DNA of 64,000 nucleotides from Halichondria panicea (taxonomy: Eukaryota > Porifera > Demospongiae > Suberitida > Halichondriidae). The notes under the pieces are model-generated. The model did not search any database and was not told where the DNA came from. It was given only the letters and a program-made list of their open reading frames with translations. The stretch spans positions 392,501 through 456,500 of the forward strand of contig NC_087385.1 in NCBI RefSeq assembly GCF_963675165.1, written 5' to 3'. This document shows positions 21,880-63,599 of the stretch, in pieces; the stretch's first letter is position 1, and each line of letters begins with the position of its first letter. The position numbers and the translations under genes are program-made.

Positions 21880-22730
21880 CTACATTGTGCACATAGCACA
21901 GTTGATCTCTTTGTAGTTGTTGTAAGGAGGGCAAGCGAGTGCATTACACACAGCCTCAACATGACCAAACAGACCATTTCCCTTCTGTTGTGCACTTCCA
22001 GGTACAGACTCGAGAGCTTTGTCAACGCATTCAAATGTAGATCGTTTATGATTACCATGCACCCTCTCTGACATGAGGTAACCGTAGTACTCTCTCGTGA
22101 ATCCAGCTGGACAAGAGCTCTTGCCGGGTACCATTAACACAACTTCTTTAGTGGGTACCATACACACAGCACAAGGAATGTCGTGGCCATGGTTTCGAAC
22201 AGTATTTTGATATTCGACATTGTAGAGTGGGCTGTAGTTCTGCACACCTTTAATGAATGGGAGGGTGTAGTCAGGTTTACTGGGCATGCACAGTCGAGTG
22301 GTACCACCACCAGTGCGAAGATGATGACTTCCAGCCATTACTCCAGCATAGACTAGATTGGCTCCATCTCTGCAGGTAGTTTTCCCCCACCTGGTGTAGA
22401 CCACTTTTCCCGCACTCTTTGTTCCAGGGTCTCCGGATGTACCAGGAGGTCCATTCTTTCCAGGAGGTCCATTCTTTCCAGGGAGTCCTTTTGGACCCAC
22501 TGGTCCCTGCACTCCATCACATCCATTTTTTCCTGGCAGCCCATCCCTACCATCACGACCACGGAGGGCAGAGACACTAAGATCCACTGATCCAGGCTCT
22601 AAAATAGTATAGTTTAGATAAATTCGTATATAGCATTCACCTTTTCTAAGTCACTTTTTGCCAGTGTAAGTAGCTGCATAGAGCTGAAGACTCCAAAGGT
22701 AATGAATAAGAGAAAGCCAGACTTCATCAT
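21880..22730 (-). CDS. SC1: spongin short-chain collagen, type M leader
   Basis: Exon 1 (22655-22730) encodes a signal peptide beginning MMKSGFLLFITFG. Exon 2 (21880-22598) encodes 16 Gly-X-Y triplets and the C-terminal domain, 264 residues in all. The collagen stretch differs from other copies: GKN triplets recur and one triplet (GCD) carries a cysteine that could form an inter-chain bond. The C-terminal domain has the ten family cysteines. Its variable patches are HHLRT (V1), HGNHK (V2) and PGSAQQKGNGLF (V3). SSCC proteins are secreted matrix proteins considered distant relatives of the type IV collagen NC1 domain. With SC2 it forms an inverted pair. It belongs to a subgroup (TKEVV, SAGKVV) shared with SC2 and SC14. 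Confidence 0.88.
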
Positions 22731-22770
22731 GACTGATTAATATTATACTCAAACTCAAAGTCGCTCTTGT

Positions 22771-22818
22771 TTTTATACCCCTTTTGCGGTATTCACTGCT
22801 TGAATACCATTCCGAAAC
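22771..22818 (-). promoter_or_regulatory. SC1 promoter: TATA box and degenerate CCGGAA site
   Basis: On the minus strand GGGTATAAAA lies about 45 bp before the ATG. The upstream element reads TTTCGGAAT instead of TTCCGGAA. Confidence 0.55.
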
Positions 22819-23358
22819 TACATTTCGACCTTGCTAGTTGGATAACACATGGTTGCTATGGCGTACAGTAAAGTTATGTTTGCAAGTCATAATCAGCAGG
22901 GAATGTGCATGTGTACCAAGTAACTGCACCATTTAATTTCATATAGCCAGCCTTCTGTCATAAGTCATCCAGTCTCTCGCAGAGTTACGTATAATTATAT
23001 ACATGTCTTCCTGTCAAATGTTCACGATGTTGGCTAACAATCAATTAATTGCCTACATTCCTTCCTGTAACCATTTTATTTCTACCGGCATGTTTATAAT
23101 CAGGTGTACGGTTGTGACCCAACACAGTTGTATTGTATAGATATAGCTAGTCAACGGTATTCGTAATTATGACCACAACTCCATAGATCTGTGCACATTG
23201 TGTCTCCATGTGTAGACTATAATTAATCATGCAGTATGGACTTTTGTTGCAGCCGTTGTATAGTACCAATTAATGAAACAAGAGAAAACAAGTGATAGAC
23301 TAGCTTAGTTAGTAATACATCATTATTACATTATTATCATACAGATATGATTGACATG

Positions 23359-23602
23359 TATCGTATTGCAGGACATTTTCGTGGGGTCCAAAATTTCGCG
23401 TTTTTTGAGGGCAGAACAGTAACGCCAAAATTAAAACTGGGATAAACTCCCACGCACCGGTATTTTCACGTGCAAAGTATTGGTGGGTGTGGTTTCCTGG
23501 CATTGAAAGGCGAATATTAAAACCCACGAAAAAATGTTTGCTGAGGGCTCTGGAGCCAAATTGTGAAAATTTGCACCCGCGAAAATTTCCCGCTATACAG
23601 TA
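23359..23602. mobile_element. MITE family 1, second copy
   Basis: Ends and interior match the element at 1642-1871, including AAACTGGGATAAACTCCCACGC-like and GGTGGGTGTGGTTTCCTG blocks. It sits at the centre of the SC1/SC2 inverted pair. Confidence 0.75.
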
Positions 23603-24571
23603 TTATAGTCACCTCCATCTCTCCATTGATTGGGAGTCACCTGCTTGACACAGTATCTGACCGATGTATAATTGATCAAACCAGCTCTCAATTTCTTTTT
23701 TGCTTCCTCAGTCACATAATAGAGAAAAATACCGGCAGCCATTGGCCTCCGATCTCCATTTGACAATGTGTGTTGTGCCATATCATATGGCATAGATAAA
23801 ACAATATAACCTTATACACATTCTGTCAAACATGCAGTAATGTACCTGTAGTGGGACACATGCAGTTTTGTCTGAAATCTATAGTTAAGTATATTTCTGA
23901 GCAGTTGCATATATATCGATATGGAGTGAGCATGTTGAAGTTCCATAGTCCTTTGGCCATGTCTTCTAAATCTTAGATTACCAAGACTGAGAAATGTGCT
24001 GGTGGGCTAGCAACGAGGGGTGCAAACAGTCCAACTGCATACAGACACAATTATACTGTGAATATCAAATAGTTATACCGCTAACGAATCCTATATATCT
24101 ATACTATGCAACCGTGTTGGGTCACATGCATCCCAGACAATTATAGACACCTGCATGCATAATCATAAACATGCGGGTACTGGTAGCTGGTTATACAGGA
24201 AGGAATGTAGGTGATTGTTAGCCAACATTGTGAAAAATTAATTGACAGTTACAACAGCATGCACTGTGAAAAATTGACGAGAACATTTGTAGGTAGAGCT
24301 ACTTCGAAAACAACAGTCTGCTATGAAAGAGTGCATGCATGCGTGCAATGTATATTGCTTGGTGCACATTCCCTGCATGACTTATGACAGAAGGCATGGC
24401 TATGAAATTTAAATGGTGCATGCAATGTAGTTACTTGCATGCACATTCCCTGCTGATTATGATTTGCAAACATGACTTACTGTACGCCATATATATCAAC
24501 CATGTGTTATCTATGCATGCATGGCAAGTTCGTAACGTGGTTCCGGAATGTTATACCCCTAATCAGTCGTG

Positions 24572-25437
24572 ATGAAGTCTGGCTTTCTCTTATTCATTGC
24601 CTTCGGAGATTTTAGCTCTATGCAGCTACTTGCACTAGTAAAAGGTGACGTTGAAAAGGTGAATGCTATATCTACTGATGAATTTATCTAAACTACTATT
24701 TTAGAGCCTGGATCAGTGGATCTTAGTGTCACTGCCCTAGCTCCGTGGTCGTGATGGCAGGGATGGGCCGCCAGGAAAAAATGGACGTGATGGAGTGCAA
24801 GGACCAGTGGGACCAAAAGGACTCCCTGGAAAGAATGGACCTCCTGGTACATCTGGAGCCCCTGGAACAAAGAGTGCCAGAAAAGTGGTCTACACCAGGT
24901 GGGGGAAAAGCACATGCAGAGATGGAGCCAAACTAGTCTATATACGTTGGATTAATGGCTGGGAGTCGCCATAATGCTGTCGGTGGTGGCACTACTCGAC
25001 TGTGAATACCCAATAATCCCGACTCTACACCATCCCATTCATTAAAGGTGTGTAGAACTACAGCCCACTCTACAATGTTGAAAAGAGACTGTGAGAAACC
25101 ATGCCCACGACATTCCTTGTGCATGCTATATGTGTGTATAATTATTGTACCCACTAAAGAAGTTGTGCTAATGGTACCTGGCAAGAGCTCTTGTCCAGCT
25201 GGATTCATGAGAGAGTACTATGGCTACCTCATGTCAGAGAGGGTGCACAGTGGTCATAGACGATCTACATTCGAATGTGTTGACAAAGATCTCGAATCTG
25301 CATCTATAGGCATGGAAGTTCACAATGGCAGGCACATGCATGCTCTGATGGATCCTGTTGAGGCTGTGTGTAATGCACTATCTTGCCCTCCTTACAACAA
25401 TTACAAAGAGATCAACTGTGCTATGTGCTCAATGTAG
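24572..25437 (+). pseudogene. SC2: inverted short-chain collagen pseudogene
   Basis: This is the only plus-strand copy. Exon 1 is 24572-24644; the usual first ATG is GTG, leaving the second ATG. Exon 2 starts at 24705. After SVTALA the frame is broken by a 4-bp insertion (about 24745) relative to SC1, giving a stop within a few codons. The region around 24935-25010 (normally LVYAGVMAGS...TTRLCMP) is further altered. The last third is open to the stop at 25437 and keeps its cysteines, with V2 HSGHR and a V3 (ASIGMEVHNGRHMHAL) unlike any other. It is most similar to SC1. Confidence 0.85.
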
Positions 25438-26568
25438 CTGTTCCGTTATGAGAGCTGAATGCGAGAACATTGAACTATATGTACTGTAGACTAATAGAGT
25501 ATATAGCTAGTTAAGGCTATTGTTTTGATCTATATATATAGTTGCATGTCAATGAACACAACGAGAGAACAAGTGGTAGACTATAGCTTAGTGAAGTCAT
25601 TCACATCCATTAAACCATCATCAATAATTATACATACATGTAATTTATTAATGACATTCATTGTTCATCTCACTACATACCACATGCCATATAGAGACAT
25701 GCCACATGGCACACAACACACAACAATGGCTGCTGAGAAGGAGGTGGTGTTTGCCTAGGAACTGAGGAGATATTTGTTAATTATGCTGGTACCTGAGTAA
25801 GAATGAAATGAAGCAATTGCACGTCTGTGGCAAGCTAGACTCCCTAATCAATGGCAGCTGAGAGATGGAAGAACTGAAAACCTATCAGGTTAGTGTACGT
25901 GTGCATGCTTCTCATGTCAATCGTACAATCATTGTATACATTATAGTTATAATTATTATGTAAATTAATGACGTAACTAAGCTGCATGGCTAGACTATAC
26001 CTATTGTTGTTCTCATTGTTACTAGATTATATAACTACATGTATAATTATGATTGCTAGATCTATACAACAATGATTAACTACTGTATTAGCCTACATTT
26101 TAGTGTTCTCTCACTCAGTTCATTGTTTTTAATTAATAACATGCAGAACAGCTACATTGAGCACATAGCACAGTGTGTAGTTGTTGTAAGGAGGGCAAGG
26201 TAGTGCATTACACACAGCCTCAACATGACCAAACAGACCATGTCCCTGAGCTGCGCGTGTGAACTTTCAGGAAGTTCCGAACAGACTCGAGATCTTTGTC
26301 AACACATTCGAATGTAGATCGCTTATGAAGAGTATGTGCCTTCTCCGACATGAGATAGCCATAGTACTCTCTCGTGAATCCAGCTGGACAAGAGCTCTAG
26401 CCGGGTACCATTAGCACAAGGTATTTAGTGGGCACCACACACACAGCACAAGGAATGTCTTGGCGATGGTTTATGATACTCAACATTGTAGAGCGGGCTG
26501 TAGCTCTGCACACCGCTAATGAATGGGAGGGTGTAGTCGGGATTATTGGGCATACACAGTCGTGTAGT

Positions 26569-26795
26569 GCCACCAGTCATACCAGTATAACGTCTGGTTT
26601 GACGTCTGGTTTGGTGTCTGAGTGTCACATGTCAGGTGTTTCATTTTTGTCTATAAAAGTCACTAGTTGTTTTCTATTATTTTTTGTCCTGAAGAATCGC
26701 TCATTGCGAAGAAAAGCTTTGATAATATAATAAAACAAATTGAAAGTGACTATATATAGCCATAGCCTTAGCCAGCTCACAGCTAGTTACCTAAA
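26569..26795. mobile_element. Insertion of unknown type in SC3 exon 2
   Basis: Paralogs read straight across this point (GTGCCACCA to TATTTCTGTA). The insert contains CGTCTGGTTTGACGTCTGGTTTG, an internal partial repeat. No clear terminal repeats or coding content were seen. Confidence 0.5.
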
Positions 26796-27011
26796 GTATT
26801 TCTGTAGTGACTTCCAGCCATTACTCCAGCATACACTAGATTGGCTCCATCTCTGCAAGTACTCTTCCCCCACCTGGTGTAAACCACACCCCCACTATTT
26901 GGTCCAGGGACTCTAGATGTACCAGGAGGTCCATTCATTCCGGGGGATCCTCTTGTGCCCACTGGTCCTTGCACTCCATCACGTCCGTCTCTTCCCCGTG
27001 GTCCATCCCTG

Positions 27012-29084: not shown

Positions 29085-29899
29085 CTACATTGTGCACATA
29101 GCACAGTTGATTTCCTTGTAGTTGTTGTAAGGAGGGCAAGGTAGTGCATTACACACAGCCTCAACATGACCAAAAAAACCGTGTCCCTGTCCGTGTGAAC
29201 TTCCATGTACAGACTCGAGAGCTTTGTCAACGCATTCGAATGTAGATCGTTTATGATTACCATGTACCCTCTCCGACATGAGGTAGCCATAGTACTCTCT
29301 TGTGAATCCAGCTGGACAAGAGCTCTTGCCAGGTACCATTAGCACAAGGTCTTTAGTGGGCACCACGCACACAGCACAAGGAATGTCGTGGGCATGGTTT
29401 CTTATGGTATTTTGATATTCAACATTGTAGAGTGGGCTGTAGTTCTGCACACCACTAATGAATGGGAGGGTGTAGTCGGGATTATTGGGCATGCACAGCC
29501 GAGTAGTGCCACCACCACTATTTAGGTGGTGACTCCCAGCCATTACTCCAGCATAGACTAGATTGGCTCCATCTCTGCAGGTAGTCTTCCCCCACCTGGT
29601 GTAGACCACACCCCCACTCTTTGCTCCAGGGGCTCCGAGTGTACCAGGAGGTCCATTCATTCCGGGGGATCCTCTTGGACCCACTGGTCCTTGCACTCCA
29701 TCACGTCCGTCTCTTCCTCGTGGTCCATCCCTGCCATCACGACCACGGAGGACACTGACATTGGATCCAGACTCTGAATGGCAATTCAGTATTTGTTACA
29801 ATAATAGCTATTTGCATAGTGTGTCTCACCTTGTGCTATTGCTAGCAGCTGCAAAGAGCCGAACACACCAAATAGTAGCAGAAAGTATGATTTCACCAT
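29085..29899 (-). CDS. SC4: spongin short-chain collagen, type V leader
   Basis: Exon 1 (29830-29899, MVKSYFLLLFGVFGSLQLL) and exon 2 (29085-29773) give 252 residues. The linker is ESGSNVSVLRG, the short type-V form. It is followed by about 14 Gly-X-Y triplets (GRDGRDGPRGRDGRDG opening) and the ten-cysteine domain. Patches are V1 HHLNS, V2 HGNHK and V3 HGSSHGQGHGFF. Its V3 equals that of the dead copies SC17 and SC19, which points to shared ancestry or conversion. The promoter carries an inserted telomere-like repeat (29966-29985). Confidence 0.88.
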
Positions 29900-30713: not shown

Positions 30714-31516
30714 TTATATTGTGCACATAGCACAGTTGATCTCTTTGTAGTTGTTGTAAGGAGGGCAAGATAGTGCATTACACACAGCCTCAACATGACC
30801 AAACAGACCGTGTAACTGAAAGTTAGAACTTCCATGTACAGACTCGAGATCTTTATCAACGCATTCGAATGTAGATCGTTTATGATGAGCATGCACCCTC
30901 TCCGACATGAGGTAGCCGTAGTACTCTCTCGTGAATCCAACTGGACAAGAGCTCTTGCCGGGTACCATTAGAACAAGGTTTTTAGTGGGCACCACACACA
31001 CAGCACAAGGAATGTCGTGGCCATGGTTTCGAACAGTGTCCTGGTATTCGATATTGTAGAGCGGGCTGTAGTTCTGCACACCATTAATAAATGGGAGGGT
31101 GTAGTCGGGATTATTGGGCATGCACAGTCGAGTAGTGCCACCACCACTAACACTGTAGTGACTCCCAGCCATTACTCCAGCATAGACTAGATTGGCTCCA
31201 TCTCTGCAGGTATGCTTCCCCCACCTGGTGTAGACTACACCCCCATTTTTTGGTCCAGGGGCTCCGGATGTACCAGGAGGTCCATTCATTCCGGGGGATC
31301 CTCTTGGACCCACTGGTCCTTGGAGTCCATCACGCCCATCTCTTCCTCGTGGCCCATCCCTGCCATCACGACCACAGAGGACACTGACGTTGGATCCAGA
31401 CTCTGAATGGTATTAGTTAAGAATAGCTATTTATATAGTATCTCACCTTTTGCTATTGCTAGCAGCTGCAAAGAGCCAAACACTCCAAATAGTAGCAGAA
31501 GGCCTGATTTCACCAT
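30714..31516 (-). CDS. SC5: spongin short-chain collagen, type V leader
   Basis: Exon 1 (31447-31516, MVKSGLLLLFGVFG) and exon 2 (30714-31402) give 252 residues. Two departures from its relatives are visible. The Arg before the first triplet is Cys (VSVLCGRDG), adding a possible disulfide. The usual TAG stop is replaced by a TAA made by a small insertion, so the C-terminus reads CTI. Patches are V1 HYSVS, V2 HAHHK and V3 HGSSNFQLHGLF. It is the parent or sister of the truncated SC7. Confidence 0.86.
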
Positions 31517-32731: not shown

Positions 32732-33287
32732 CTACATTGTGCACATAGCACAGTTGATCTCTTTGTAGTTGTTGTACGGAGGGCAAGCGAGTGCATTACA
32801 CTGAGCCTCGACATGGCCAAACAGACCATTTTCTATTCGAAAGTGTGATGAACTTCCATGTACAACTTCCAAATCTTTGTCAACACATTCAAAAGTAGAT
32901 CGTTTATGAGCAGGATGCACTTTTTCTGACATGAGATAGCCATAGTACTCTCTCGTGAATCCAGCTGGACAAGAGCTCTTGCCGGGTACCATTAGCACAA
33001 AGTCTTTAGTGGGCACTACACACACAGCACAAGGAATGTCGTGGGCATGGTTTCTTATGGTATTTTGATATTCAACATTGTATAGTGGGGTGTATTTCTG
33101 CACACCATTAATGAATGGGAGTGTGTAGTCAGGATCATTGGGCATGCACAGTCGTGTAGTGCCACCTCCACTATTTCTGTAATGACTCCCAGCCGTTACT
33201 CCAGCATAGACTAGATTGGCTCCATCTCTGCAGGTATGCTTACCCCACCTAGTGTAGACCACACCCCCATTCTTTGGTGCAAGGGCT
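32732..33287 (-). pseudogene. SC6: short-chain collagen, 5' half deleted
   Basis: The ten-cysteine domain is open from 33262 (VVYTRWGK) to the stop at 32732. The reading runs out at GALAPKNGGV, and upstream sequence jumps straight into spacer (ATATATATTATATACTTGTA). The leader exon, intron and nearly all Gly-X-Y triplets are gone, so no secreted collagen can be made unless a new promoter and leader exist. V1 is HYRNS and V2 HPAHK. V3 is the long form HGSSSHFRIENGLF. Confidence 0.85.
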
Positions 33288-33299: not shown

Positions 33300-35450
33300 T
33301 ATATACTTGTACTGTATGCTCCTACAGAATAATAGTATTGTTAGAGTAACTAGTGTAGGGTTTCATTGGTAGAAACTGAAAGTGGTATTTACTATGATCA
33401 CATGCATACAATCTGTTGTATGTACCTCTGCTGTAAGTCAATTTTCACTAATGATTTTCTTTCCTACACACATCTTCCTGTATACCCATTATGTTTCTAC
33501 CTGCAGGTTGTGATTAGGTGTCATGTTTCTAAACATGCATAACAATTAAGTTAACGTATAAAAATTATGGATAGCAAAATTAATGGTTGTTGATTAGAAC
33601 ATCTAAGTATTTCTACCAAAGCTGGCCGTCTGTGTCAATCATAATTATGCTTATAATGTTTTGTAAGCATCAAACATAATAATGCGAATTGCGAGCGTTG
33701 AACACTTCCCAAAAATAGAATCGCAAAACCTAAAATAATTATAGTACCTGGTAAATACATACGATCCTTGCCATATATAACTGAGTAGTTAGATCGCAAA
33801 GAGTCCATTTTTCTGCTGATTTGGCTCGATCGTAAAGTTTTTCACCAGCAAAATGTTCTAGTAATACGGTACACATGCAATGGAGAACCTAACTCTTACT
33901 AATATTCTACATAGTTCAGTGCATGTTCTCTCACTCAGTCAGAAAACTACATTGTGCACATAGCACAGTTGATCTCTTTGTAGTTGTTGTAAGGAGGGCA
34001 AGCGAGTGCATTACACTGAGCCTCAACATGACCAAACAGACCATGTCCCTGATACTTAGAACTTCCATGTATAGACTCGAGATCTTTATCAATGCATTCG
34101 AATGTAGATCGTTTATGATGAACATGCACCCTCTCCGACATGAGGTAGCCATAGTACTCTCTCGTGAATCCAGCTGGACAAGAGCTCTTGCCGGGTACCA
34201 TTAGCACAAGGTTTTTAGTGGGCACCACACACACAGCACAAGGAATGTCGTGGCCATGGTTTTTTATTGTACCCTGATACTCAACATTGTAGAGCGGGCT
34301 GTAGTTCTGCACACCATTAATGAATGGGAGGATGTAGTCGGGATCATTGGGCATACACAGTCATGCTCAGGCTGTTCTCTTTCCATGAAGAAATTGAACT
34401 CATACTTTTTGTTTTATACCCACCCTTTGACTAACATAATTATTGCATAATATTTTATTCAGGGTAGAATTGCTTAAGACATAATTTCCGGGGAACTTAT
34501 ACCATGCATATTGTACTATATATATATAATTATGCTCCCACAGAATATATAACATATTATAGAGTATAGCAATAGTCTAGGGTTTCAATGGTATGAGAGA
34601 ACCTATGATCACATAACTGATCTGTTGTACGTCCAAATGTAAGTCTATAGTGATTCCTAGCTACCTACACACATCTTCCTGTACCCATTATGTTTCTACC
34701 TGCATGTTGTGTGATTAGGTGTCATTTTTCTAACATAGTGCCGTAAAAAATGGTTGGAAGGCGTTTGTATTTCTACCAAGCTCAGAGCTCAGCTGTGTAA
34801 ATCATACACACAATCTGATGACATTAGTAAACCTAAATCCTTATACTGACTGCTATAATAATGTAGTCTACGTAGTTGATCAGTGTTCTCTCATTCAGTT
34901 CATATAGAACAGCGATACATTGTGCACACACTATGCACAGTTGATCTCTTTGCTGGCCCACCAGCACATGCCCAAATTAGAACAACTGCTGCTCCCTCAG
35001 AATAATAATAGATTTTAGCTAGGGACTCAATTGAACTCTGTGTTATATATTATATAGATCTACATTACTATTGTCAAGAGCATAAGAAGTGATGACGCAG
35101 GAGCAGGCAAATTCTGTTACTATATAGCAGTTCAACACTCTTACTTCTTACAGTATTTGTGTATTGGGGAGGTTTTTAATGACATTCATAAATTGGTCAC
35201 CTACCCACATGCCACATGCATACATCACCATAGATCTATGATAGCACAACACAAATGGGCCAATCTAGATCTGCTGAAAGAGGTGTCTACCTATTTCTTC
35301 TTTATTGTGACTGACAAACCAACTAATGAGGAGATGTTGCCTTGGAAGCAATTGCACATCTGTGGCAAGGACTCCCAATCACAGCTGAGATATGGAGAAA
35401 CTGAATAACCTTATCAGGTTAGTGTGCATGCTTCTCATGTCAATCATCAA
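33300..35450. repeat. Segmental duplication, copy 2 (contains truncated SC7)
   Basis: This is the second copy of the block at 30046-32600. It is shorter because about 0.4 kb of gene sequence was lost inside SC7. Confidence 0.8.
33947..34360 (-). pseudogene. SC7: short-chain collagen, leader and collagen stretch deleted
   Basis: The reading is open from MPNDPDYILPF to the stop at 33947, but only the last 135 residues remain. At 34360 the sequence jumps from the TRLCMP codons to the region just before the normal start codon (compare 31516-31560). One deletion thus removed exon 1, the intron, all Gly-X-Y triplets, the first cysteine segment and V1. V2 is HVHHK and V3 HGSSKYQGHGLF. Confidence 0.85.
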
Positions 35451-35617: not shown

Positions 35618-36446
35618 CTACATTGTGCACATAGCACAGTTGATCTCTTTGTAATTGTTATAAGGAGGGCAAGATAGTGCATTACACACAGCCTCAACAT
35701 GACTAAACAGACCATGAAATTGCATTTGGTAACTTCCATATACAGACTCGAGATCTTTGTCAACGCATTCGAATGTAGATCGACTATGAACCTCATGTAC
35801 CCTCTCCGACATGAGGTAGCTATAGTACTCTCTCGTGAATCCAGCTGGACAAGAGCTCTTGCCGGGTACCATTAGCACAAGGTCTTTAGTGGGCACCATA
35901 CACACAGCGCAAGGAATGTCGTGGTTAGCATTTCGAACAGTAGCTTGATATTCAACATTGTAGAGTGGGCTGTAGCTCTGAACACCACTAATGAATGGGA
36001 GTGTGTAGTCGGGATCATTGGGCATACACAGTCGTGTGGTCCCACCTCCATTTTTTCTGTGATGACTTCCAGCCATTACTCCAGCATAGACTAGAATAGC
36101 TCCATCTCTGCAGGTAATCTTCCCCCACCTGGTGTAGACCACACCCCCACTCTTTGGTCCAGGGGCTCCAGATGTACCAGGAGGTCCATTCATTCCGGGG
36201 GATCCTCTTGGGCCCACTACTCCTTGCACTCCATCACGTCCGTCTCTTCCTCGTGGCCCATCCCTGCCATCACGACCACGAAGGACACTGACGCTAGGAG
36301 TCCCACCAACAGCCACTCATCCAGACTCTAGAAAATGTTGTTCAGATAAAAATTCACATCATCCACTTACCTTGTGCCAGTGCAAGTAGCTGCATAGAGC
36401 TGAAGAGTTCAAAGGCAATGAATAAGAGAATGCCGGACTTCATCAT
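35618..36446 (-). pseudogene. SC8: short-chain collagen, type M, nonsense codon at exon junction
   Basis: Exon 1 (36371-36446, MMKSGILLFIAFELFSSM) and exon 2 (35618-36327) have intact borders and length. The fourth codon of the junction peptide ESGS is TGA instead of TCA (plus strand 36318-36320), a single-base change. The rest is open for 232 residues. Use of the AG 12 nt downstream (then GAG) as acceptor would skip the stop in frame, so the gene may not be fully dead. V1 is HHRKN. V2 is HEVHS and V3 YGSYQMQFHGLF, both unusual. Confidence 0.75.
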
Positions 36447-37060: not shown

Positions 37061-37873
37061 CTACATTGTGCACATAGCACAGTTGATCTCTTTGTAGTTG
37101 TTGTAAGGAGGGCAAGCAAGTGCATTACACACAGCCTCAACAGGACCAAACAGACCATGTGCCTGATACTTAAAACTTCCATGTACAGACTCGAGATCTT
37201 TATCAACACATTCGAATGTAGATCGTTTATGAGCAATATGCACCCTCTCCGACATGAGGTAGCCATAGTACTCTCTCGTGAATCCAGCTGGACAAGAGCT
37301 CTTGCCGGGTACCATTAGCACAAGGTCTTTAGTGGGCACCACACACACAGCACAAGGAATGTCGTGGCCATGGTTTCGCATGGTGTCTTGATACTCAACA
37401 TTGTAGAGTGAGCTGTAGCTCTGCACACCACTAATGAATGGGAGGATGTAGTCGGGATCATTGGGCATACACAGTCGTGTGGTCCCACCACCACTTGTAA
37501 GGTAGCGGCTCCCAGCCATTACTCCAGCATAGACTAGATTGGCTCCATCTCTGCAGGTATGCTTCCCCCACCTGGTGTAGACCACACCCCCACTCTTTGG
37601 ACCAGGGGCTCCGAGTGTACCAGGAGGTCCATTCATTCCGGGGGATCCTCTTGGGCCCACTGGTCCTTGCACTCCATCACGTCCGTCTCTTCCTCGTGGC
37701 CCATCCCTGCCGTCACGACCACGGAGGACACTGACATTGGATCCAGACTCTGAATGGCAGTTCAGTATTCGTTGCAATAATAGCTATTTGTATAATGTCT
37801 CACCTTGTGCTATTACTAGCAGCTGCAAAGAACCGAACACACCAAATAGTAGCAGAACGCCTGATTTCACCAT
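37061..37873 (-). CDS. SC9: spongin short-chain collagen, type V leader
   Basis: Exon 1 (37804-37873) and exon 2 (37061-37749) give 252 residues. The leader is MVKSGVLLLFGVFGSLQLL. The linker is ESGSNVSVLRG and about 14 Gly-X-Y triplets follow, with GTLGAPG near the end. Patches are V1 RYLTS, V2 HIAHK and V3 HGSFKYQAHGLF. GPVEA replaces the common GHVEA. The 0.6-kb spacer to SC8 is nearly identical to the spacers between SC16/SC17, SC18/SC19 and SC20/SC21, so the M-V dyad was copied as a unit. Confidence 0.88.
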
Positions 37874-39871: not shown

Positions 39872-39969
39872 CTACATTGTGCACATAGCACAGTTGATCT
39901 CTTTGTAGTTGTTGTAAGGAGGGCAAGGTAGTGCATTACACACAGCTTCAACATGACCAAACCAACCAG
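39872..39969 (-). pseudogene. SC11: 98-bp relic of a short-chain collagen 3' end
   Basis: Only the last 30 or so codons remain (GWFGHVEAVCNALPCPPYN to the stop). The sequence then continues directly into 3'-flank material (GCACAGTTGATCTCTTTTGCT). Confidence 0.8.
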
Positions 39970-47940: not shown

Positions 47941-48779
47941 CTACATTGTGCACATAGCACAGTTGATCTCTTTGTAGTTGTTGTAAGGAGGGCAAGCGAG
48001 TGCATTACACACAGCCTCAACATGACCAAACAGACCGTGAGTAGCGTATTCTTGACTTGAGCTTCCATGTACAGACTCGAGATCTTTATCAACACATTCG
48101 AATGTAGATCGCTTATGACCAGGGTGCACCCTCTCCGACATGAGGTAGCCATAGTACTCTCTCGTGAATCCAGCTGGACAAGAGCTTTTGCCGGGTACCA
48201 TTAGCACAAGGTCTTTAGTGGGCACCACACACACAGCACAAGGAATGTCATGACCATGGTTTCTTATGGTACTTTGATATTCAACAGGAAAAAGTGGGCT
48301 GTAGCTCTGCACACCACTAATGAATGGGAGGGTGTAGTCAGGATCATTGGGCATGCACAGTCGAGTAGTGCCACCACCAGCCTGATTATTGACACTCCCA
48401 GCCATTACTCCAGCATAGACTAGATTGGCTCCATCTCTGCAGGTATGCTTCCCCCACCTGGTGTAGACCACACCCCCACTCTTTGGTCCAGGGGCTCCAG
48501 ATGTACCAGGAGGTCCATTCATTCCGGGGGATCCTCTTGGGCCCACTGGTCCTTGTACTCCATCACGTCCGTCTCTTCCTCGTGGACCATCCCTGCCATC
48601 ACGACCACGGAGGACACTGACACTAGGAGTCCCACCAACAGGTACTGATCCAGACTCTAAAAAAATGTATTAAATTTCACATTATTCACATTTACATGTT
48701 TACCTTGTCCCAGTGCTAGTAGCTGCACAGAGCTGAAGACTCCAAAGGTAACAAATAAGAGAAGGCCAGACTTCATCAT
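47941..48779 (-). CDS. SC15: spongin short-chain collagen, type M leader
   Basis: Exon 1 (48704-48779, MMKSGLLLFVTFGVFSSV) and exon 2 (47941-48656) give 263 residues. The linker is ESGSVPVGGTPSVSVLRG. V1 is VNNQA, the only intact copy without a His or Arg at its first position. V2 is HPGHK and V3 is the long form HGSSSQEYATHGLF. LFPVEYQ replaces LYNVEYQ, a combination shared only with SC12. It stands alone after the transposon-rich gap. Confidence 0.88.
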
Positions 48780-49400: not shown

Positions 49401-50230
49401 CTACATTGTGCACATAGCACAGTTGATCTCTTTGTAGTTGTTGTAAGGAGGGCAAGCGAGTGCATTACACACAGCCTCAACATGACAAAACAGACCGTGT
49501 ATCTGCCATTGTGAACTTCCATGTACAGACTCGAGATCTTTATCAACGCATTCGAATGTAGATTGCTTATGATCACCATTTACCTTCTCCGACATGAGGT
49601 AGCCATAGTACTCTCTCGTGAATCCAGCTGGACAAGAGCTCTTGCCAGGTACCATTAGCACAAGGTCTTTAGTGGGCACCACACACACAGCACAAGGAAT
49701 GTCGTGACCATGGCTTTGAACAGTGTCCTGATATTCGATATTGTAGAGTGGGCTGTAGTTCTGCACACCATTAATGAATGGGAGGGTGTAGTCGGGATCA
49801 TTGGGCATACACAATCGAGTGGTGCCACCACCAGCGTGATGATAATGACTCCCAGCCATTACTCCAGCATAGACTAGATTGGCTCCATCTCTGCAGGTAG
49901 TCTTCCCCCACCTGGTGTAGACCACACCCCCACTCTTTGGACCAGGGGCTCCAGATGTACCAGGAGGTCCATTCATTCCAGGGGATCCTCTTGGGCCCAC
50001 TACTCCTTGCACTCCATCACGCCCGTCTCTTCCTCGTGGCCCATCCCTGCCATCACGACCACGAAGGACACTGACGCTAGGAGTCCCACCAACAGCCACT
50101 GACTGATCCAGACTCTAGAAAATGTTGTTCAGATAAAAATTCACATCATCCACTTACCTTGTGCCAATGCAAGTAGCTGCATAGAGCTGAAGAGTTCAAA
50201 GGCAACGAATAAGAGAATGCCGGACTTCAT
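49401..50230 (-). pseudogene. SC16: short-chain collagen, type M, 4-bp frameshift at exon junction
   Basis: Exon 1 is 50158-50230; the first of the two usual ATGs is GTG, so the second is used. Exon 2 (49401-50114) carries a 4-bp tandem duplication (ACTG ACTG, near 50097-50104) that shifts the frame into a TAG within 13 codons. The same duplication creates CAG 16 nt inside exon 2. Splicing there would restore the frame as V-A-V-G-G. The rest is open, with V1 HYHHA, V2 NGDHK and V3 HGSSQWQIHGLF, and FCHVEA replacing FGHVEA (an extra Cys). Confidence 0.75.
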
Positions 50231-50838: not shown

Positions 50839-51658
50839 CTACATTGTGCACATAGCACAGTTGATCTCTTTGTAGTTGTTGTAAGGAGGGCAAGGTAGTG
50901 CATTACACACAGCCTCAACATGACCAAAAAAACCGTGTCCCTGCCCGTGTGAACTTCCATGTACAGACTCGAGATCTTTGTCAACGCATTCGAATGTAGA
51001 TCGGTGATGATTACCATGTACCCTCTCCGACATGAGGTAGCCATAGTACTCTCTTGTGAATCCAGCTGGACAAGAGCTCTTGCCGGGTACCATTAGCACA
51101 AGGTCTTTAGTGGGCACCACACACACAGCACAAGGAATGTCGTGGGCATGGCTTCTTATGGTATTTTGATATTCAACATTGTATATAGAGTGGGCTGTAG
51201 TTCTGCACACCATTAATAAATGGGAGGGTGTAGTCGGGATTATTGGGCATGCACAATCAAGTGGTGCCACCACCAGCCTGATGATAATGACTCCCAGCCA
51301 TTACTCCAGCATAGACTAGATTGGCTCCATCTCTGCAGGTATGCTTCCCCCACCTGGTGTAGACCACACCCCCACTCTTTGGACCAGGGGCTCCAGATGT
51401 ACCAGGAGGTCCATTCATTCCGGGAGATCCTCTTGGGCCCACTGGTCCTTGTACTCCATCACGTCCGTCTCTTCCTCGTGGCCCATCCCTGCCATCACGA
51501 CCACAGAGGACACTGACGTTGGATTCAGACTCTGAATGGCATTTCAGTGTTTATTGCAATAACTACAATTATAGTGTCTCACCTTGCAATTCTGCTATTG
51601 CTAGCAGCTGTAGAGAGCCGAACACTCCAAATAGTAGCAGAAGGCCTGATTTCACCAT
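50839..51658 (-). pseudogene. SC17: short-chain collagen, type V, two lesions
   Basis: Exon 1 (51583-51658) has an in-frame 6-bp insertion near its end (AIAELQ). Exon 2 (50839-51531) has a CGA to TGA change in TTRLCMP (near 51257) and a 4-bp TATA insertion near 51183 in the YNVEYQ segment. It is otherwise well preserved, so it is recently dead. V1 is HYHQA, V2 HGNHH and V3 HGSSHGQGHGFF. Confidence 0.88.
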
Positions 51659-53276: not shown

Positions 53277-54105
53277 CTACATTGTGCACATAGCACAGTT
53301 GATCTCTTTGTAATTGTTGTAAGGAGGGCAAGCGAGTGCATTACACACAGCCTCAACATGACCAAACAGACCGTGTCCCTGGTGATGTGAACTTCCATGC
53401 ACAGACTCGAGATCTTTGTCAACACATTCAAATGTCGATCGTTTATGATTAACATGTACCCTCTCTGACATGAGGTAGCCATAGTACTCTCTCGTGAATC
53501 CAGCTGGACAAGAGCTCTTGCCGGGTACCATTAGCACAAGGTCTTTAGTGGGCACCATACACACAGCGCAAGGAATGTCGTGGTTAACATTTCGAACAGT
53601 AGCTTGATATTCAACATTGTAGAGTGGGCTGTAGCTCTGCACACCACTAATGAATGGGAGTGTGTAGTCGGGATCATTGGGCATACACAGTCGTGTGGTG
53701 CCACCTCCATTTTTTATGTGATGACTTCCAGCCATTACTCCAGCATAGACTAGAATAGCTCCATCTCTGCAGGTAATCTTCCCCCACCTGGTATAGACCA
53801 CACCCCCACTCTTTGGTCCAGGGGCTCCAGATGTACCAGGAGGTCCATTCATTCCAGGGGATCCTCTTGGACCCACTACTCCTTGCACTCCATCACGTCC
53901 GTCTCTTCCTCGTGGCCCATCCCTGCCATCACGACCACGAAGGACACTGACGCTAGGAGTCCCACCAACAGCCACTGATCCAGACTCTAGAAAATGTTGT
54001 TCAGATAAAAATTCACATCATCCACTTACCTTGTGCCAATGCAAGTAGCTGCATAGAGCTGAAGAGTTCAAAGGCAACGAATAATAGAATGCCGGACTTC
54101 ATCAT
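53277..54105 (-). CDS. SC18: spongin short-chain collagen, type M leader
   Basis: Exon 1 (54030-54105, MMKSGILLFVAFELFSSM) and exon 2 (53277-53986) give 261 residues, split by a 43-nt intron. The linker is ESGSVAVGGTPSVSVLRG. Patches are V1 HHIKN, V2 HVNHK and V3 HGSSHHQGHGLF. ITCRDGAILVY replaces the common TTCRDGANLVY, as in SC8, SC20 and SC24. Its exon 2 protein appears identical to that of SC20, as expected from the 3.87-kb duplication. Confidence 0.9.
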
Positions 54106-54709: not shown

Positions 54710-55529
54710 CTACATTGTGCACATAACACAGTTGATCTCTTTGTAGTTGTTGTAAGGAGGGCAAGGTAGTGCATTACACACAGCCTCAACAGGACCAAAA
54801 AAACCGTGTCCCTGCCCGTGTGAACTTCCATGTACAGACTCGAGATCTTTGTCAACGCATTCGAATGTAGATCGGTGATGATTACCATGTACCCTCTCCG
54901 ACATGAGGTAGCCATAGTACTCTCTTGTGAATCCAGCTGGACAAGAGCTCTTGCCGGGTACCATTAGCACAAGGTCTTTAGTGGGCACCACACACACAGC
55001 ACAAGGAATGTCGTGGGCATGGCTTCTTATGGTATTTTGATATTCAACATTGTATATAGAGTGGGCTGTAGTTCTGCACACCATTAATAAATGGGAGGGT
55101 GTAGTCGGGATTATTGGGCATGCACAATCAAGTGGTGCCACCACCAGCCTGATGATAATGACTCCCAGCCATTACTCCAGCATAGACTAGATTGGCTCCA
55201 TCTCTGCAGGTATGCTTCCCCCACCTGGTGTAGACCACACCCCCACTCTTTGGACCAGGGGCTCCAGATGTACCAGGAGGTCCATTCATTCCGGGAGATC
55301 CTCTTGGGCCCACTGGTCCTTGTACTCCATCACGTCCGTCTCTTCCTCGTGGCCCATCCCTGCCATCACGACCACAGAGGACACTGACGTTGGATTCAGA
55401 CTCTGAATGGCATTTCAGTGTTTATTGCAATAACTACAATTATAGTGTCTCACCTTGCAATTCTGCTATTGCTAGCAGCTGTAGAGAGCCGAACACTCCA
55501 AATAGTAGCAGAAGGCCTGATTTCACCAT
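54710..55529 (-). pseudogene. SC19: duplicate of dead SC17
   Basis: Exon 1 (55454-55529) and exon 2 (54710-55402) share both SC17 lesions: TGA in TTRLCMP and the TATA insertion. The duplication therefore happened after gene death. Since then it has gained its own changes, INCVMC for INCAMC and GPVEA for GHVEA. Confidence 0.9.
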
Positions 55530-57150: not shown

Positions 57151-57979
57151 CTACATTGTGCACATAGCACAGTTGATCTCTTTGTAATTGTTGTAAGGAG
57201 GGCAAGCGAGTGCATTACACACAGCCTCAACATGACCAAACAGACCGTGTCCCTGGTGATGTGAACTTCCATGCACAGACTCGAGATCTTTGTCAACACA
57301 TTCAAATGTCGATCGTTTATGATTAACATGTACCCTCTCTGACATGAGGTAGCCATAGTACTCTCTCGTGAATCCAGCTGGACAAGAGCTCTTGCCGGGT
57401 ACCATTAGCACAAGGTCTTTAGTGGGCACCATACACACAGCGCAAGGAATGTCGTGGTTAACATTTCGAACAGTAGCTTGATATTCAACATTGTAGAGTG
57501 GGCTGTAGCTCTGCACACCACTAATGAATGGGAGTGTGTAGTCGGGATCATTGGGCATACACAGTCGTGTGGTGCCACCTCCATTTTTTATGTGATGACT
57601 TCCAGCCATTACTCCAGCATAGACTAGAATAGCTCCATCTCTGCAGGTAATCTTCCCCCACCTGGTATAGACCACACCCCCACTCTTTGGTCCAGGGGCT
57701 CCAGATGTACCAGGAGGTCCATTCATTCCAGGGGATCCTCTTGGACCCACTACTCCTTGCACTCCATCACGTCCGTCTCTTCCTCGTGGCCCATCCCTGC
57801 CATCACGACCACGAAGGACACTGACGCTAGGAGTCCCACCAACAGCCACTGATCCAGACTCTAGAAAATGTTGTTCAGATAAAAATTCACATCATCCACT
57901 TACCTTGTGCCAGTGCAAGTAGCTGCATAGAGCTGAAGAGTTCAAAGGCAACGAATAATAGAATGCCGGACTTCATCAT
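57151..57979 (-). CDS. SC20: spongin short-chain collagen, type M leader
   Basis: Exon 1 (57904-57979) and exon 2 (57151-57860) give 261 residues, with exon 2 protein identical to SC18 including V1 HHIKN, V2 HVNHK and V3 HGSSHHQGHGLF. It is the newest intact member of the array by this measure. Either copy may be redundant. Confidence 0.9.
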
Positions 57980-58012
57980 GAATGACTGTTATAGCTTATA
58001 CTCCTTAACTCT

Positions 58013-58602: not shown

Positions 58603-59434
58603 CTACATTGTGCACATAGCACAGTTGATCTCTTTGTAGTTGTTGTAGGGAGGGCAAGCGAGTGCATTACACACAGCCTCAACATGACCAAACCAACCAT
58701 GTGCCTGCGCGTGTGAACTTCCAGGCACAGACTCGAGAGCTTTGTCAACGCATTCGAATGTAGATCGCTTATGACTGGTATGTACTCTCTCCGACATGAG
58801 GTAGCCATAGTACTCTCTCATGAATCCAGCTGGACAAGAGCTCTTGCCGGGTACCATTAGCACAAGGTCTTTAGTGGGCACCACACACAAAACACAAGGA
58901 ATGTCGTGGGCATGGTTTCGAACAGTATTTTGATATTCGACATTGTAGAGTGGGCTGTAGTTCTGCACACCTTTAATGAATGGGAGGGTGTAGTCGGGAT
59001 TGTTGGGCATACACAATCGAGTAGTGCCACCACCACTAACACTGTAGCGACTCCCAGCCATTACTCCAGCATAGACTAGATTGGCTCCATCTCTGCAGGT
59101 ATGCTTCCCCCACCTGGTGTAGACCACACCCCCACTCTTTGGACCAGGGGCTCCAGATGTACCAGGAGGTCCATTCATTCCGGGGGATCCTCTTGGGCCC
59201 ACTGCTCCTTGAACTCCATCACGTCCGTCTCTTCCTCGTGGCCCATCCCTGCCATCACGACCACGGAGGACACTGACATTGGATCCAGACTCTGTATGTA
59301 ATCAGCGTCATTTCAGTGTTTGTTGCAATAATTATTAAAAAGCTATTTGTATAGTGTGTCTCACCTTGTGCTATTGCTAGCAGCTGCAAAGAGCCGATCA
59401 CACCAAATAGTAGCAGAAAGTATGATTTCACCAT
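58603..59434 (-). CDS. SC21: spongin short-chain collagen, type V leader
   Basis: Exon 1 (59365-59434, MVKSYFLLLFGVIGSLQLL) and exon 2 (58603-59291) give 252 residues. The 73-nt intron is the longest among the intact copies. IPCVLCVVP replaces IPCAVCVVP. Patches are V1 RYSVS, V2 HTSHK and V3 PGSSHAQAHGWF. GVQGAVGPRG replaces GVQGPVGPRG in the collagen stretch. It follows the duplicated spacer but its body is distinct from SC17 and SC19, so this dyad member was exchanged or escaped homogenisation. Confidence 0.88.
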
Positions 59435-59492
59435 GGCTGATTTATTTCCGTGCAGCAACTGAACTCATGCTTTGCTGGCTCAGGTTGTTTTG

Positions 59493-59592
59493 TTTTATAC
59501 CCTTTGACTAACATTTTAAAAGTATTGTAGACATATATACATACATGCATGCAAGGGTATACAAGTCAGTGCTTAAGATGTTTCCGGGGAAC
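59493..59592 (-). promoter_or_regulatory. SC21 promoter: TATA box and CCGGAA site
   Basis: The minus strand has GGGTATAAAAC and GTTCCCCGGAAA. The gap between them is wider than in other type-V copies. Confidence 0.55.
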
Positions 59593-59994: not shown

Positions 59995-60802
59995 CTACAT
60001 TGTGCACATAGCACAGTTGATTTCTTTGTAATTGTTGTAAGGAGGGCAAGCGAGTGCATTACACACAGCCTCAACATGACCAAACAGACCATTTAACTGA
60101 TACTTAGAACTTCCATGTACAGACTCAAGAGCTTTGTCAACACATTCGAATGTAGATCGTTTATGATTAACATGCACCCTCTCCGACATGAGGTAACCAT
60201 AGTACTCTCTCGTGAATCCAGCTGGACATGAGCTCTTGCCGGGTACCATTAGCACAAGGTCTTTAGTGGGCACCACACACACAGCACAAGGAATGTCGTG
60301 GCCATGGTTTCGCACGGTGTCTTGATATTCGACATTGTAGAGTGGGCTGTAGCTCTGCACACCATTAATGAATGGGAGGGTGTAGTCAGGATCATTGGGC
60401 ATGCACAGTCGAGTAGTGCCACCACCACTTGTACCGTAGTGGCTCCCAGCCATTACTCCAGCATAGACTAGATTGGCTCCATCTCTCAGTGCAGGTATGC
60501 TTCCCCCACCTGGTGTAGACCACACCCCCACTCTTTGGTCCAGGGGCTCCAGATGTACCAGGAGGTCCATTCATTCCGGGGGATCCTCTTGGGCCCACTG
60601 GTCCTTGCACTCCATCACGTCCGTCTCTTCCTCGTGGCCCATCCCTGCCATCACGACCACGGAGGACACTGACATTGGATCCAGACTCGGAATGGCAGTT
60701 CAGTATTAATAGCTATTTGTATAATGTCTCACCTTGTGCTATTACTAGCAGCTGCAAAGAACCGAACACACCAAATAGTAGCAGAACACCGGATTTCACC
60801 AT
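59995..60802 (-). pseudogene. SC22: short-chain collagen, type V, splice acceptor lost and frameshift
   Basis: Exon 1 (60733-60802) is intact. The exon 2 acceptor reads CG instead of AG (plus 60688-60689, GACTCGGAATGG versus GACTCTGAATGG elsewhere). A 4-bp insertion near 60486-60489 shifts the frame within TCRDGANLVY. Removing 4 bp restores the exact length of SC4 and SC9. V1 is HYGTS, V2 HVNHK and V3 HGSSKYQLNGLF. Confidence 0.86.
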
Positions 60803-61315: not shown

Positions 61316-62146
61316 CTACATTGTGCACATAGCACAGTTGATCTCTTTGTAATTATTGTAAGGAGGGCAAGCGAGTGAATTACACACAGCCTCGACATGA
61401 CCAAACAGACCGTGATACTGCATTTGGGAACTTCCATGTACAGACTCGAGATCTTTGTCAACACATTCAAATGTAGATCGATGATGAGTAGTATGCACCC
61501 TCTCCGACATGAGGTAGCCATAGTACTCTCTCATGAATCCAGCTGGACAAGAGCTCTTGCCGGGTACCATTAGCACAAGGTTGTTAGTGGGCACCACACA
61601 CACAGCACAAGGAATATCGTGGCCATGGCTTCGAACAGTGTCCTGATATTCGACATTGTGTAGTGGGCTATAGTTCTGCACACCATTAATGAATGGGAGG
61701 GTGTAGTCGGGATTATTGGGCATGCACAGTCGTGTGGTGCCACCACCAACAGCAATGTGGTGACTCCCAGCCATTCGTCCAGCATAGACTAGATTGGCTC
61801 CATCTCTGCAGGTATGCTTACCCCACCTGGTGTAGACCACACCCCCACTCTTTGGTCCAGGGGCTCCAGATGTACCAGGAGGTCCATTCATTCCGGGGGA
61901 TCCCCTTGGGCCCACTGGTCCTTGCACTCCATCACGTCCGTCTCTTCCTCGTGGCCCATCCCTGCCATCACGACCACGGAGGACACTGACGCTAGGAGTG
62001 CCACCAACAGCCACTGATCCAGACTCTAAAGCAGCAGTTCAGATAAATTCATATAACTTTTCTATGTTACCTTGTCCCAGTGCAAGTAGCTGCATAGAGC
62101 TGAAGACTCCAAAGGCAACAAATAAGAGAAGGCCAGACTTCATCAT
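61316..62146 (-). CDS. SC23: spongin short-chain collagen, type M leader
   Basis: Exon 1 (62071-62146, MMKSGLLLFVAFGVFSSM) and exon 2 (61316-62025) give 261 residues. The donor is GTAACA rather than GTGAC. YAGRMAGS replaces YAGVMAGS, and TNNLVL replaces TKDLVL. Patches are V1 HHIAV, V2 HTTHH and V3 HGSSQMQYHGLF; CNSLAC replaces CNALAC. Confidence 0.9.
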
Positions 62147-62191
62147 GACTTGTCTGCTGAGGCGTACTCGTCAATTCAAAATAACCGTCTC

Positions 62192-62250
62192 CTTTTATAC
62201 ACTCTTTGCATTTGGTGTAGCATATTCACTGCTTGTAGCATTTCCGGAAC
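62192..62250 (-). promoter_or_regulatory. SC23 promoter: TATA box and CCGGAA site
   Basis: The minus strand has GTATAAAAGG and GTTCCGGAAA. Confidence 0.6.
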
Positions 62251-62562
62251 CATAATACAGTGTGTTGCATTGGTAGGAGGACATTGCCAATTAGGCACAT
62301 GATTTTTATTGCGTATATAATTATAAACATGTCGTTATGAAATCTGTGTACCAACTCACTACACTATTTCATACATATAGCTATAAATTATAGCTTGACT
62401 TATAATTATAGAAGTTTATTTTTATGGCCTAAGCGATTAACAAAAGACCCTCACTTATGATCACCATGTTGTTCGTTGCTAGTCAATTTTCACAATACAG
62501 ATATAGTTGTACAGTACGTATAATGCTGTCAATAAAATGATTCCTTCCTATACACACATCTT

Positions 62563-62632
62563 CCTGTACCCATTATGTTTCTACCTGCATGTTGTGATTA
62601 GGTGTCATGTTTCTAAATATGCATAACAAGTT
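62563..62632. repeat. Representative array upstream box
   Basis: CATCTTCCTGTACCCATTAT, then GTTTCTACCTGCATG, then TTGTGATTAGGTGTCATG recur in the array spacers, usually 280-420 bp upstream of an SC start codon. Other good copies start near 30205, 31823, 33472, 34671, 36761, 38200, 39618, 41340, 42349, 47213, 47692, 49158, 50547, 51940, 54426, 55814, 58303, 59785 and 61109. ACAGGAAG on the minus strand resembles an ETS-factor site. Role unproven. Confidence 0.7.
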
Positions 62633-62768
62633 GATGTTGCAAATAGCATTCGGTTGACAACAAGGCCGGAGTTCTTCCATATCAATCTCACATGTATAGA
62701 CATTTTAACTGAGTATATATATTAGTCTACATACTCCAGAGTGTTTTCAATCGGTTCATATAGAACAG

Positions 62769-63599
62769 CTACATTGTGCACATAGCACAGTTAATCTCTT
62801 TGTAATTGTTGTAAGGAGGGCAAGCGAGTGCATTACACACAGCCTCAACATGACCAAACAGACCATGTCCCTGATGATGTGAACTTCCATGCACAGACTC
62901 GAGATCTTTATCAACACATTCAAATGTAGATCGGTGATGATTAACATGCACCCTCTCCGACATGAGGTAGCCATAGTACTCTCTCGTGAATCCAGCTGGA
63001 CAAGAGCTCTTGCCGGGTACCATTAGCACAAGGTCTTTAGTGGGCACCATACACACAGCACAAGGAATGTCGTGGTTAACATTTCGAACAGTAGCTTGAT
63101 ATTCGACACTGTAGAGTGGGCTGTAGCTCTGCACACCACTAATGAATGGGAGTGTGTAGTCGGGATCATTGGGCATACACAGTCGTGTGGTGCCACCTCC
63201 ATTTTTTATGTGATGACTTCCAGCCATTACTCCAGCATAGACTAGAATAGCTCCATCTCTGCAGGTAATCTTCCCCCACTTGGTGTAGACCACACCCCCA
63301 CTCTTTGGTCCAGGGGCTCTAGATGTACCAGGAGGTCCATTCATTCCAGGGGATCCTCTTGGGCCCACTACTCCTTGCACTCCATCACGTCCGTCTCTTC
63401 CTCGTGGCCCATCCCTGCCATCACGACCACGAAGGACACTGACGCTAGGAGTCCTACCAACAGCCACTGATCCCGACTCTAAAACAGCAGTTCAGATAGA
63501 TAAATTCATCACTTCTATGTTACCTTGTGCCCGTGTAAATAGCTGCATAGAGCTGAAGACTCCAAAAGTAACAAATAAGAGAAGGCCAGATTTCATCAT
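62769..63599 (-). CDS. SC24: spongin short-chain collagen, type M leader
   Basis: Exon 1 (63524-63599) and exon 2 (62769-63478) give 261 residues. The leader begins MMKSGLLLFVTFGVFSSM and ends with FTRAQ rather than LALAQ, the most altered signal-peptide end in the array. The body is close to SC18 and SC20 (V1 HHIKN, V3 HGSSHHQGHGLF) but V2 is HVNHH. YTKWGK replaces YTRWGK and YSVEYQ replaces YNVEYQ. Confidence 0.88.

Follow-up and report, generated by a model that had tools for sequence, protein, structure and literature searches.

The right half of a 64,000-nucleotide stretch of the genome of the demosponge Halichondria panicea (NC_087385.1, positions 392,501–456,500, assembly GCF_963675165.1; hereafter the window, to which all coordinates refer) contains a tandem array of secreted short collagens of the spongin short-chain collagen (SSCC) family, lying nearly throughout on the minus strand. 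The assembly comprises 131 Mb in 39 contigs. The C-terminal head domain of these proteins consists of two repeats like those of collagen IV and is near-invariant among the copies except at four short patches, V1 to V4; the copies are mosaics, and in most recent duplicate pairs the patches have diverged beyond the flanking DNA. We give about even weight to the reading that the patches form an NC1-like assembly face that has been diversified with block exchange between copies, for which the choice of partners would be the likeliest use.

The array and its head domain

The motif flanking V1 has 21 matches in the window (20 on the minus strand and one on the plus strand) versus none in shuffled sequences. 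Between 21883 and 63293 lie 24 copies of the head domain, named here by their first coordinate, with one further copy, L001, directly beyond the window end. The domain is uninterrupted in 15 of the 24 and broken or partial in nine. A typical gene opens with a small exon for the signal peptide; after a short intron (45 bases by eye in one copy), a single exon encodes both the Gly-X-Y stalk and the head. In the reference copy, exon 1 (48704..48779, minus strand) encodes the signal peptide MMKSGLLLFVTFGVFSSVQLLALGQ and exon 2 (47941..48656, minus strand) the head domain preceded by a short Gly-X-Y stalk. Pattern searches of the copies inside the window recovered the complete set of signal exon, splice acceptor and open exon 2 in nine of the 15 open copies. 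In 62772 the signal was found and the acceptor pattern had no match, while 21883 and 30717 have an open exon 2 and no signal exon found by the pattern search. The copies counted as intact below (the "12 intact copies") are these nine genes, 62772, 21883, 30717 and, from outside the window, L001, with 53280 and 57154 (identical head domains) merged. The other three open copies are damaged upstream, 35621 by an in-frame TGA, 49404 by a frameshift and 32735 by absence of the collagen part from the open frame; they were kept in the rate, site, PHI and 15-copy motif tests and left out of the 12-copy analysis, and 57154 was left out of all rate tests.

The Pfam Collagen profile scored 26.5 bits on an array protein, slightly below its cut-off of 27.2. 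SSCCs were reportedly studied by Exposito in 1991 and Aouacheria in 2006. The family and its relation to collagen IV are already known (PMC5395295, PMC5867623). The SSCC head is described as having seven cysteines in common with collagen IV and three of its own, a total of ten by our sum, and as being without the HSQ motif (PMC5395295). In 16 aligned copies of the array domain ten cysteines are invariant (codons 11, 39, 78, 81, 98, 127, 156, 161, 172 and 175), the number given in a first-pass annotation of the DNA, and the HSQ motif occurs in none of the aligned head domains. In adult Amphimedon, several short-chain collagens are reported to rise (PMC3447736).

Kinship of the head to the collagen IV NC1 domain, which the first-pass annotation had stated, is borne out by a profile search of PDB and by Foldseek. 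A profile of 25 sequences (alignment A6, bacterial homologues included) retrieved 6mpx (a fusion construct; E-value=9.1e-9) and 1li1_A (the alpha1 chain; E-value=6.7e-4). With sequences of the sponge genome alone no NC1 was found in PDB, searches of Pfam, PHROGs and PDB gave nothing significant for the head, and none of 38 members matched Pfam C4 at E-values up to 1. The two halves of the domain align with a score of 88, whereas the best of 100 column shuffles scored 17.6, and in this alignment V1 stands opposite V2, making them the equivalent loop of each repeat; the head is two collagen-IV-C4-like repeats. An AlphaFold model from window sequences only reached a pLDDT of 33; a second, with window sequences and three bacterial domains (pLDDT 53.6, pTM 0.53), is modest and usable for fold recognition alone. 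Foldseek of the model against PDB returned exclusively collagen IV NC1 at ranks 1–21 (best E-value=7.2e-4, TM-score 0.42).

Variable patches

Mean amino-acid identity among the 12 intact copies is 92.5% outside the patches versus 55% inside, and these copies hold 10 distinct alleles at V1, 10 at V2, 11 at V3 and 10 at V4. The pattern of a near-invariant domain with variable patches had been proposed at first pass, and all V1 strings quoted there were recovered among the 12 copies. Of the three patches then named, V1, V2 and V3 all stand; the count is four, since V4 (YQxTxxxxxHDIPC, codons 67–74) shows diversity like that of the others, and single sites outside the patches (codons 9, 43, 52 and 56) vary too. 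In the reference copy the patches lie on the minus strand at 48379..48393 (V1, codons 27–31, VNNQA), 48250..48273 (V4), 48112..48129 (V2, codons 115–121) and 48034..48069 (V3, codons 136–147).

The four structural motifs hold 16 of the 20 most variable sites, with an entropy of 0.76 inside versus 0.18 outside. When the motif labels were shifted circularly, none of 176 shifts matched the contrast with 15 copies and one of 176 did so with 12; the test is not blind, because the motif limits were set by hand after the alignment had been seen. Histidine makes up 23% of residues in the patches versus 0.5% outside the motifs, the near-invariant H74 and H120 counted in. As a separate observation, codon 9 (His, Thr or Ile ahead of the first cysteine) lies outside the patches and has a posterior of 0.92 for beta > alpha.

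Recent duplicates and block exchange

Three recent pairs (37064/58606, 35621/53280 and 38403/61319) were chosen from nine for good alignment on both sides. Summed over these pairs, differences number 65 in 261 sites of the patches (25%), 67 in 1305 sites elsewhere in the domain (5.1%) and 225 in 4712 flanking sites (4.8%), the flanks being 900 bases on either side, of which the closest 5' part codes for the stalk. In eight of the nine duplicate pairs printed, divergence in the patches (22–48%) lies above that of the rest of the domain (3–11%) and of the flanks (4–12%), in keeping with the earlier claim that differences concentrate there. The nonsynonymous divergence (dN) of the patches is 1.6 to 2.4 times the synonymous divergence (dS) of the core in the three summed pairs, and averages 0.39 versus a core dS of 0.20 over 29 of 91 pairs. 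Relaxed constraint alone, acting on one shared history, was considered as an explanation and is ruled out by patch divergence above both flanks and core dS. Uneven gene conversion could contribute to the patch excess.

The PHI test for recombination gave p=0.001, and the copies are therefore mosaics; it is the only formal test of mosaicism, the segment trees looking different by eye. Near-identical patches occur in non-sister copies: V1 of 58606 is one base from that of 30717 and its V4 one base from that of 21883, while V2 of 37064 is two bases from V2 of L001. Some other patches have no close donor, and long identical tracts lie between patches (e.g. codons 74–114 and 143–177). Block exchange followed by further change fits these observations.

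Probable position of the patches on the NC1 fold

Profile alignment places V1 on NC1 residues 40–45, within VQGNERAHGQ. In collagen IV the structural motifs SM1 (NC1 residues 37–45) and SM1' (144–154) are paired hairpins directed towards the central tunnel; SM1, SM1' and SM2 are named as key to the formation of protomers, and the face-to-face docking of two protomers is said to involve all six motifs (PMC6211539). In the fly NC1, position 40 is among the residues coordinating a divalent cation at the trimer-trimer interface (PMC10694668). By homology V1 and V2 would correspond to SM1 and SM1', V2, the repeat-2 counterpart of V1, being assigned to SM1' because the internal repeat pairs the two. 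Less surely, V3 may lie near SM2' and V4 near SM3, a placement depending in part on alpha1(IV) NC1 residue numbers beyond the aligned stretch of 19–147.

The patches thus appear to fall in the equatorial layer of the fold, and the conserved core in the polar layer. The first-pass annotation had proposed that they are one exposed contact surface. Homology, with low local confidence of alignment, points to patches that share one layer and are not scattered; the word "exposed" is uncertain, because in collagen IV both SM1 and SM1' border on the central tunnel and on the equatorial plane.

Rates of change in the patches

Nei-Gojobori analysis gave a dN/dS of 0.65 for V1–V3 versus 0.19 outside. A tree-free minimum-change count gave omega-like ratios of 0.81 for V1–V3 and 0.28 outside; among the 12 intact copies the values were 0.75 for the patches and 0.26 for the rest, with a nonsynonymous excess in the patches (Fisher p=0.0001). 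A site model with one tree per segment gave twice the log-likelihood difference (2dL) as 8.6 for sites with beta > alpha, and posteriors of 0.94–0.97 for codons 31, 119 and 145. The 2dL of 8.6 was used in place of the 24.5 obtained with a single tree, because mosaicism makes one tree doubtful. Synonymous diversity is raised around the patches (permutation p=0.009).

Region averages of patch dN/dS are about 0.4–1.2 and not clearly above 1, partly because block exchange raises synonymous differences there too. The first-pass annotation had expected values above 1 under diversifying selection and had taken values at or below 1 as telling against it, so that its expectation fails as worded. That yardstick misleads here, because synonymous differences inside the patches are raised by block exchange between copies. 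A region-wide dN/dS above 1 is not borne out by the averages, apart from single exceptions, V2 of cluster C3a being one (N 9, S 0, p=0.14).

Relatives elsewhere in the genome and in bacteria

The family has at least 119 matches genome-wide at E-values up to 1e-3, pieces of a single copy being counted separately, and these include sets on C17, C3 (two places, C3a and C3b), C10 and C14. Of 34 stretches fetched, L017, L024 and L030–L034 had no frame caught by the pattern and L002 was dropped; 54 rows remain. Read by eye, four frames on C10 and C14 (L019, L027–L029) have a longer N-terminal part with a hydrophobic stretch also present, and they show no collagen stalk. Motif tests covered C17, C3a, C3b (excluding L021_1756) and five dispersed paralogues (L010, L013, L014, L015 and L018), one look-alike group chosen by eye. 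A nonsynonymous excess in the same motifs was found in C17 (one-sided p=0.0003) and in the dispersed five (p=0.0015). Loop diversification is a tendency of the family and is not universal.

The genome also holds a separate collagen-IV-like gene, L035 (G000:C9:6766511-6766849), with Pfam C4 over cut-off and Gly-X-Y frames upstream. Demosponges are stated to be without collagen IV in PMC5395295, and type IV collagen genes are described from a freshwater demosponge in PMC7385117.

A profile scan of bacterial genomes revealed homologues of the head in two metagenome-assembled genomes, and sampled searches, with the starting genomes counted, gave matches in 11 of the 282 genomes from one phylum and in a single genome among 296 from the other. 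The two-repeat NC1-like heads (L037, CALENB010000436.1; L038, CAIYOV010000326.1; L041, L043, L044, L046, L049 and L051) stand at the C-terminal end of proteins that are fibre-like or secreted. Two of them, L049 and L051, share the layout of SSCCs, the head being borne on a Gly-X-Y stalk, and one fibre-like protein matches Shufflon_N (profile positions 200–302 of 324). A quick tree, with three bacterial rows as its root, groups the sponge sequences in one clade, all bacterial rows lying outside it. Histidine occurs in V1 of 8 of the 9 bacterial rows of alignment A6 versus 8 of 16 sponge rows, and in V2 of 7 of 9 versus 10 of 16; in the nine bacterial rows both loops are often HYxH-like. Metal at the paired V1 and V2 loops is a reasonable guess from these sequences. 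No relatives were found among viral contigs, nor, with the L037 domain as query, among plasmids and phages. No report of two-repeat NC1 heads in bacteria was found in the portions of the literature searched, which included few subscription papers.

Function and alternatives

Signal peptide, short Gly-X-Y stalk and two-repeat head would make up a secreted chain, the head of which may trimerise in the manner of collagen IV NC1. By homology the V1–V4 loops would belong to the equatorial layer of such a trimer, with the conserved core maintaining the fold. Short loop-bearing blocks would be swapped among the copies by gene conversion or unequal crossing-over, and the swapped loops would mutate further, different ones presumably being retained by selection. 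The loops may then decide which chains trimerise or which heads dock. Partner choice is placed narrowly ahead of the binding of an outside ligand, because the equivalent motifs serve that function in collagen IV. Hypervariable SSCC loops, block exchange among them or their mapping to an assembly face were not reported in the portions of the literature searched, few subscription papers being among it.

A number of results weigh against a diversified assembly face. On the side of the rates, dN/dS in the patches is 0.38–0.72 by Nei-Gojobori and 0.42–0.76 among the 12 intact copies, and the omega-like ratio is 0.47–1.01 per patch, with eight core codons at 1.20 (p=0.33). The segment-tree site test is marginal, its 2dL of 8.6 being reached by 6 of 200 null simulations, which held the trees fixed and so favour the claim of selection. 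The raised synonymous diversity near the patches is equalled by 11 of 105 circular shifts and is not relied on. Motif excess was not significant in C3a (p=0.27) or C3b (p=0.37), and the tree-free count gave an excess of nonsynonymous change in the patches in none of the other clusters. Among the duplicates, pair 53280/62772 differs by 5.7% in the patches, 2.1% in the rest and 10.0% on the 5' side. The summed pairs were chosen for similar 3' flanks. Flanks are an imperfect neutral yardstick; they may be younger than the genes through recent exchange, because their mean divergence of 0.098 is below the mean core dS of 0.20 (29 of 91 pairs). As to the fold, the per-residue confidence of HMMER is low precisely across the V1 stretch, and V3 and V4 were positioned solely by the spacing of cysteines. 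The patch loops are the weakest part of the AlphaFold model, its low-confidence stretches (27–37, 47–75, 113–124 and 134–168) including all four patches. A VIA-align comparison of the model with NC1 gave a middling Z of 6.0 (127 residues, 4.3 Å), values under 8 being regarded by the tool as possibly mere common arrangement. The SSCC trimer may also differ from that of collagen IV, because spongins are modelled as having no domain-swapping region (PMC5395295).

The strongest alternative, which we hold to be possible and only narrowly less probable than partner choice, is that the equatorial face binds ligands and that its loops diversify towards microbes, symbionts or matrix targets. The defence collagens (collectin, ficolin and C1q) also combine a collagen stalk with a trimeric head. 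Loops that change fast within a tandem array and are exchanged as blocks would suit such a function, as would the histidine-rich patches, which are apt for metal-assisted contact. The same head caps bacterial fibre-like proteins, including the one with the Shufflon_N match and two that have collagen stalks. Elsewhere in the sponge genome, in separate clusters, it sits on chains with no stalk visible in the open frame. Set against this, the equivalent loops of collagen IV serve assembly (PMC6211539) and the literature, as consulted in part, describes SSCCs as components of the matrix.

A less favoured explanation holds that the patches, lying in loops tolerant of change, are hot spots of recombination or mutation, or have escaped the gene conversion that homogenises the rest, with selection for difference not required. 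The omega-like ratio near 1, the synonymous differences raised in the patches as well, a site test that is only marginal once mosaicism is allowed for, and the long identical tracts at codons 74–114 and 143–177 are all as it would predict. Relaxed constraint cannot, however, carry divergence above flanks or core dS, yet the patches stand at 25% versus 5% for the flanks; and separate hits would be needed on four loops of one layer, again in C17 and in the dispersed set. On balance we regard it as unlikely.

An extension of partner choice, which we consider a long shot, is a germline-coded barcode in which about a dozen interchangeable chains would form varied homo- and heterotrimers whose docking could read self, tissue type or resident microbes. 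Clustered protocadherins on neurons offer a comparison. Individual-specific recognition (allorecognition) by the head loops is very improbable: diversity and mosaicism are compatible with it and collagen deposition is a barrier in graft rejection, SSCCs being unnamed there (PMC5450542), but that paper mentions collagen once and spongin never, and among the titles and abstract openings seen none names short-chain collagens as allorecognition molecules.

Comparison with known systems

With SSCCs the array has in common the short Gly-X-Y stalk, the NC1-like head with ten cysteines and no HSQ, and the homology of this head to NC1 of collagen IV. Hypervariability focused on loops, exchange of blocks and the probable mapping to an assembly face were not found reported for SSCCs in the portions of the literature searched. 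With collagen IV NC1 it shares the two C4-like repeats, the V1 and V2 loops being the putative counterparts of the assembly motifs SM1 and SM1'. The chains of collagen IV are long, with a collagenous domain of about 1400 residues, 12 NC1 cysteines and HSQ (PMC5395295, PMC9253329), whereas the array has a short stalk and ten cysteines; collagen IV carries Pfam C4 domains and the array head gives no Pfam C4 match. Cthrc1 and BclA show a layout of collagen and head in animals and bacteria, as does the array family, but with a C1q-like jelly-roll head in place of the two-repeat NC1 head (PMC7058181).

SSCCs are usually regarded as plain skeleton proteins, close kin of basement-membrane collagen. 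If they bear a partner-choosing face diversified like a recognition surface, specificity may reside in part of the animal's matrix, and a recognition face may have been the origin of the one that builds basement membranes elsewhere. The pairing of collagen IV chains is not fully explained (PMC6211539), and the array provides, on a common scaffold, a dozen natural variants with which to test the loops that decide collagen chain pairing.

Inventory of the array and neighbouring genes

All copies are on the minus strand except where stated. The nine genes with all three features are 29088..29609 (V1 HHLNS), 37064..37585 (RYLTS), 38403..38927 (HHRAV), 42605..43126 (HHRAV, with a shortened collagen part), 47944, 53280..53801 (HHIKN), its twin 57154..57675, 58606..59127 (RYSVS) and 61319..61840 (HHIAV). 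The open copies lacking a signal exon by pattern search are 21883..22404 (HHLRT) and 30717..31238 (HYSVS), and that with the unmatched acceptor is 62772..63293 (HHIKN). The copies damaged upstream occupy 32735..33262, 35621..36142 (TGA near the start of exon 2) and 49404..49925 (frameshift within exon 2). Broken copies were found at 24885..25434 (opposite, plus strand; two pieces in two frames), 26151..26887 (four pieces in three frames), 40524..42079 (two copies, 40524–41002 and 41568–42079), 50842..51367 and 54713..55238 (two frames each), and 59998..60486 (frameshifted near domain codon 12). A partial domain begins at codon 38 (33950..34360), and a fragment covers codons 146–176 (39875..39967).

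Two overlapping segments, 49368–55606 and 53248–59510, form a tandem repeat of 6.3 kb each at 96% identity, which spans six array copies, the twins 53280 and 57154 among them. A similar stretch, seen by eye in translated frames, recurs upstream of three array genes and may be a promoter region common to them or a small mobile element. Elsewhere in the window, two look-alike blocks (1048–6231 and 11719–15820) both contain Kelch-type and protein-kinase frames, as identified with Pfam on one frame of each kind.

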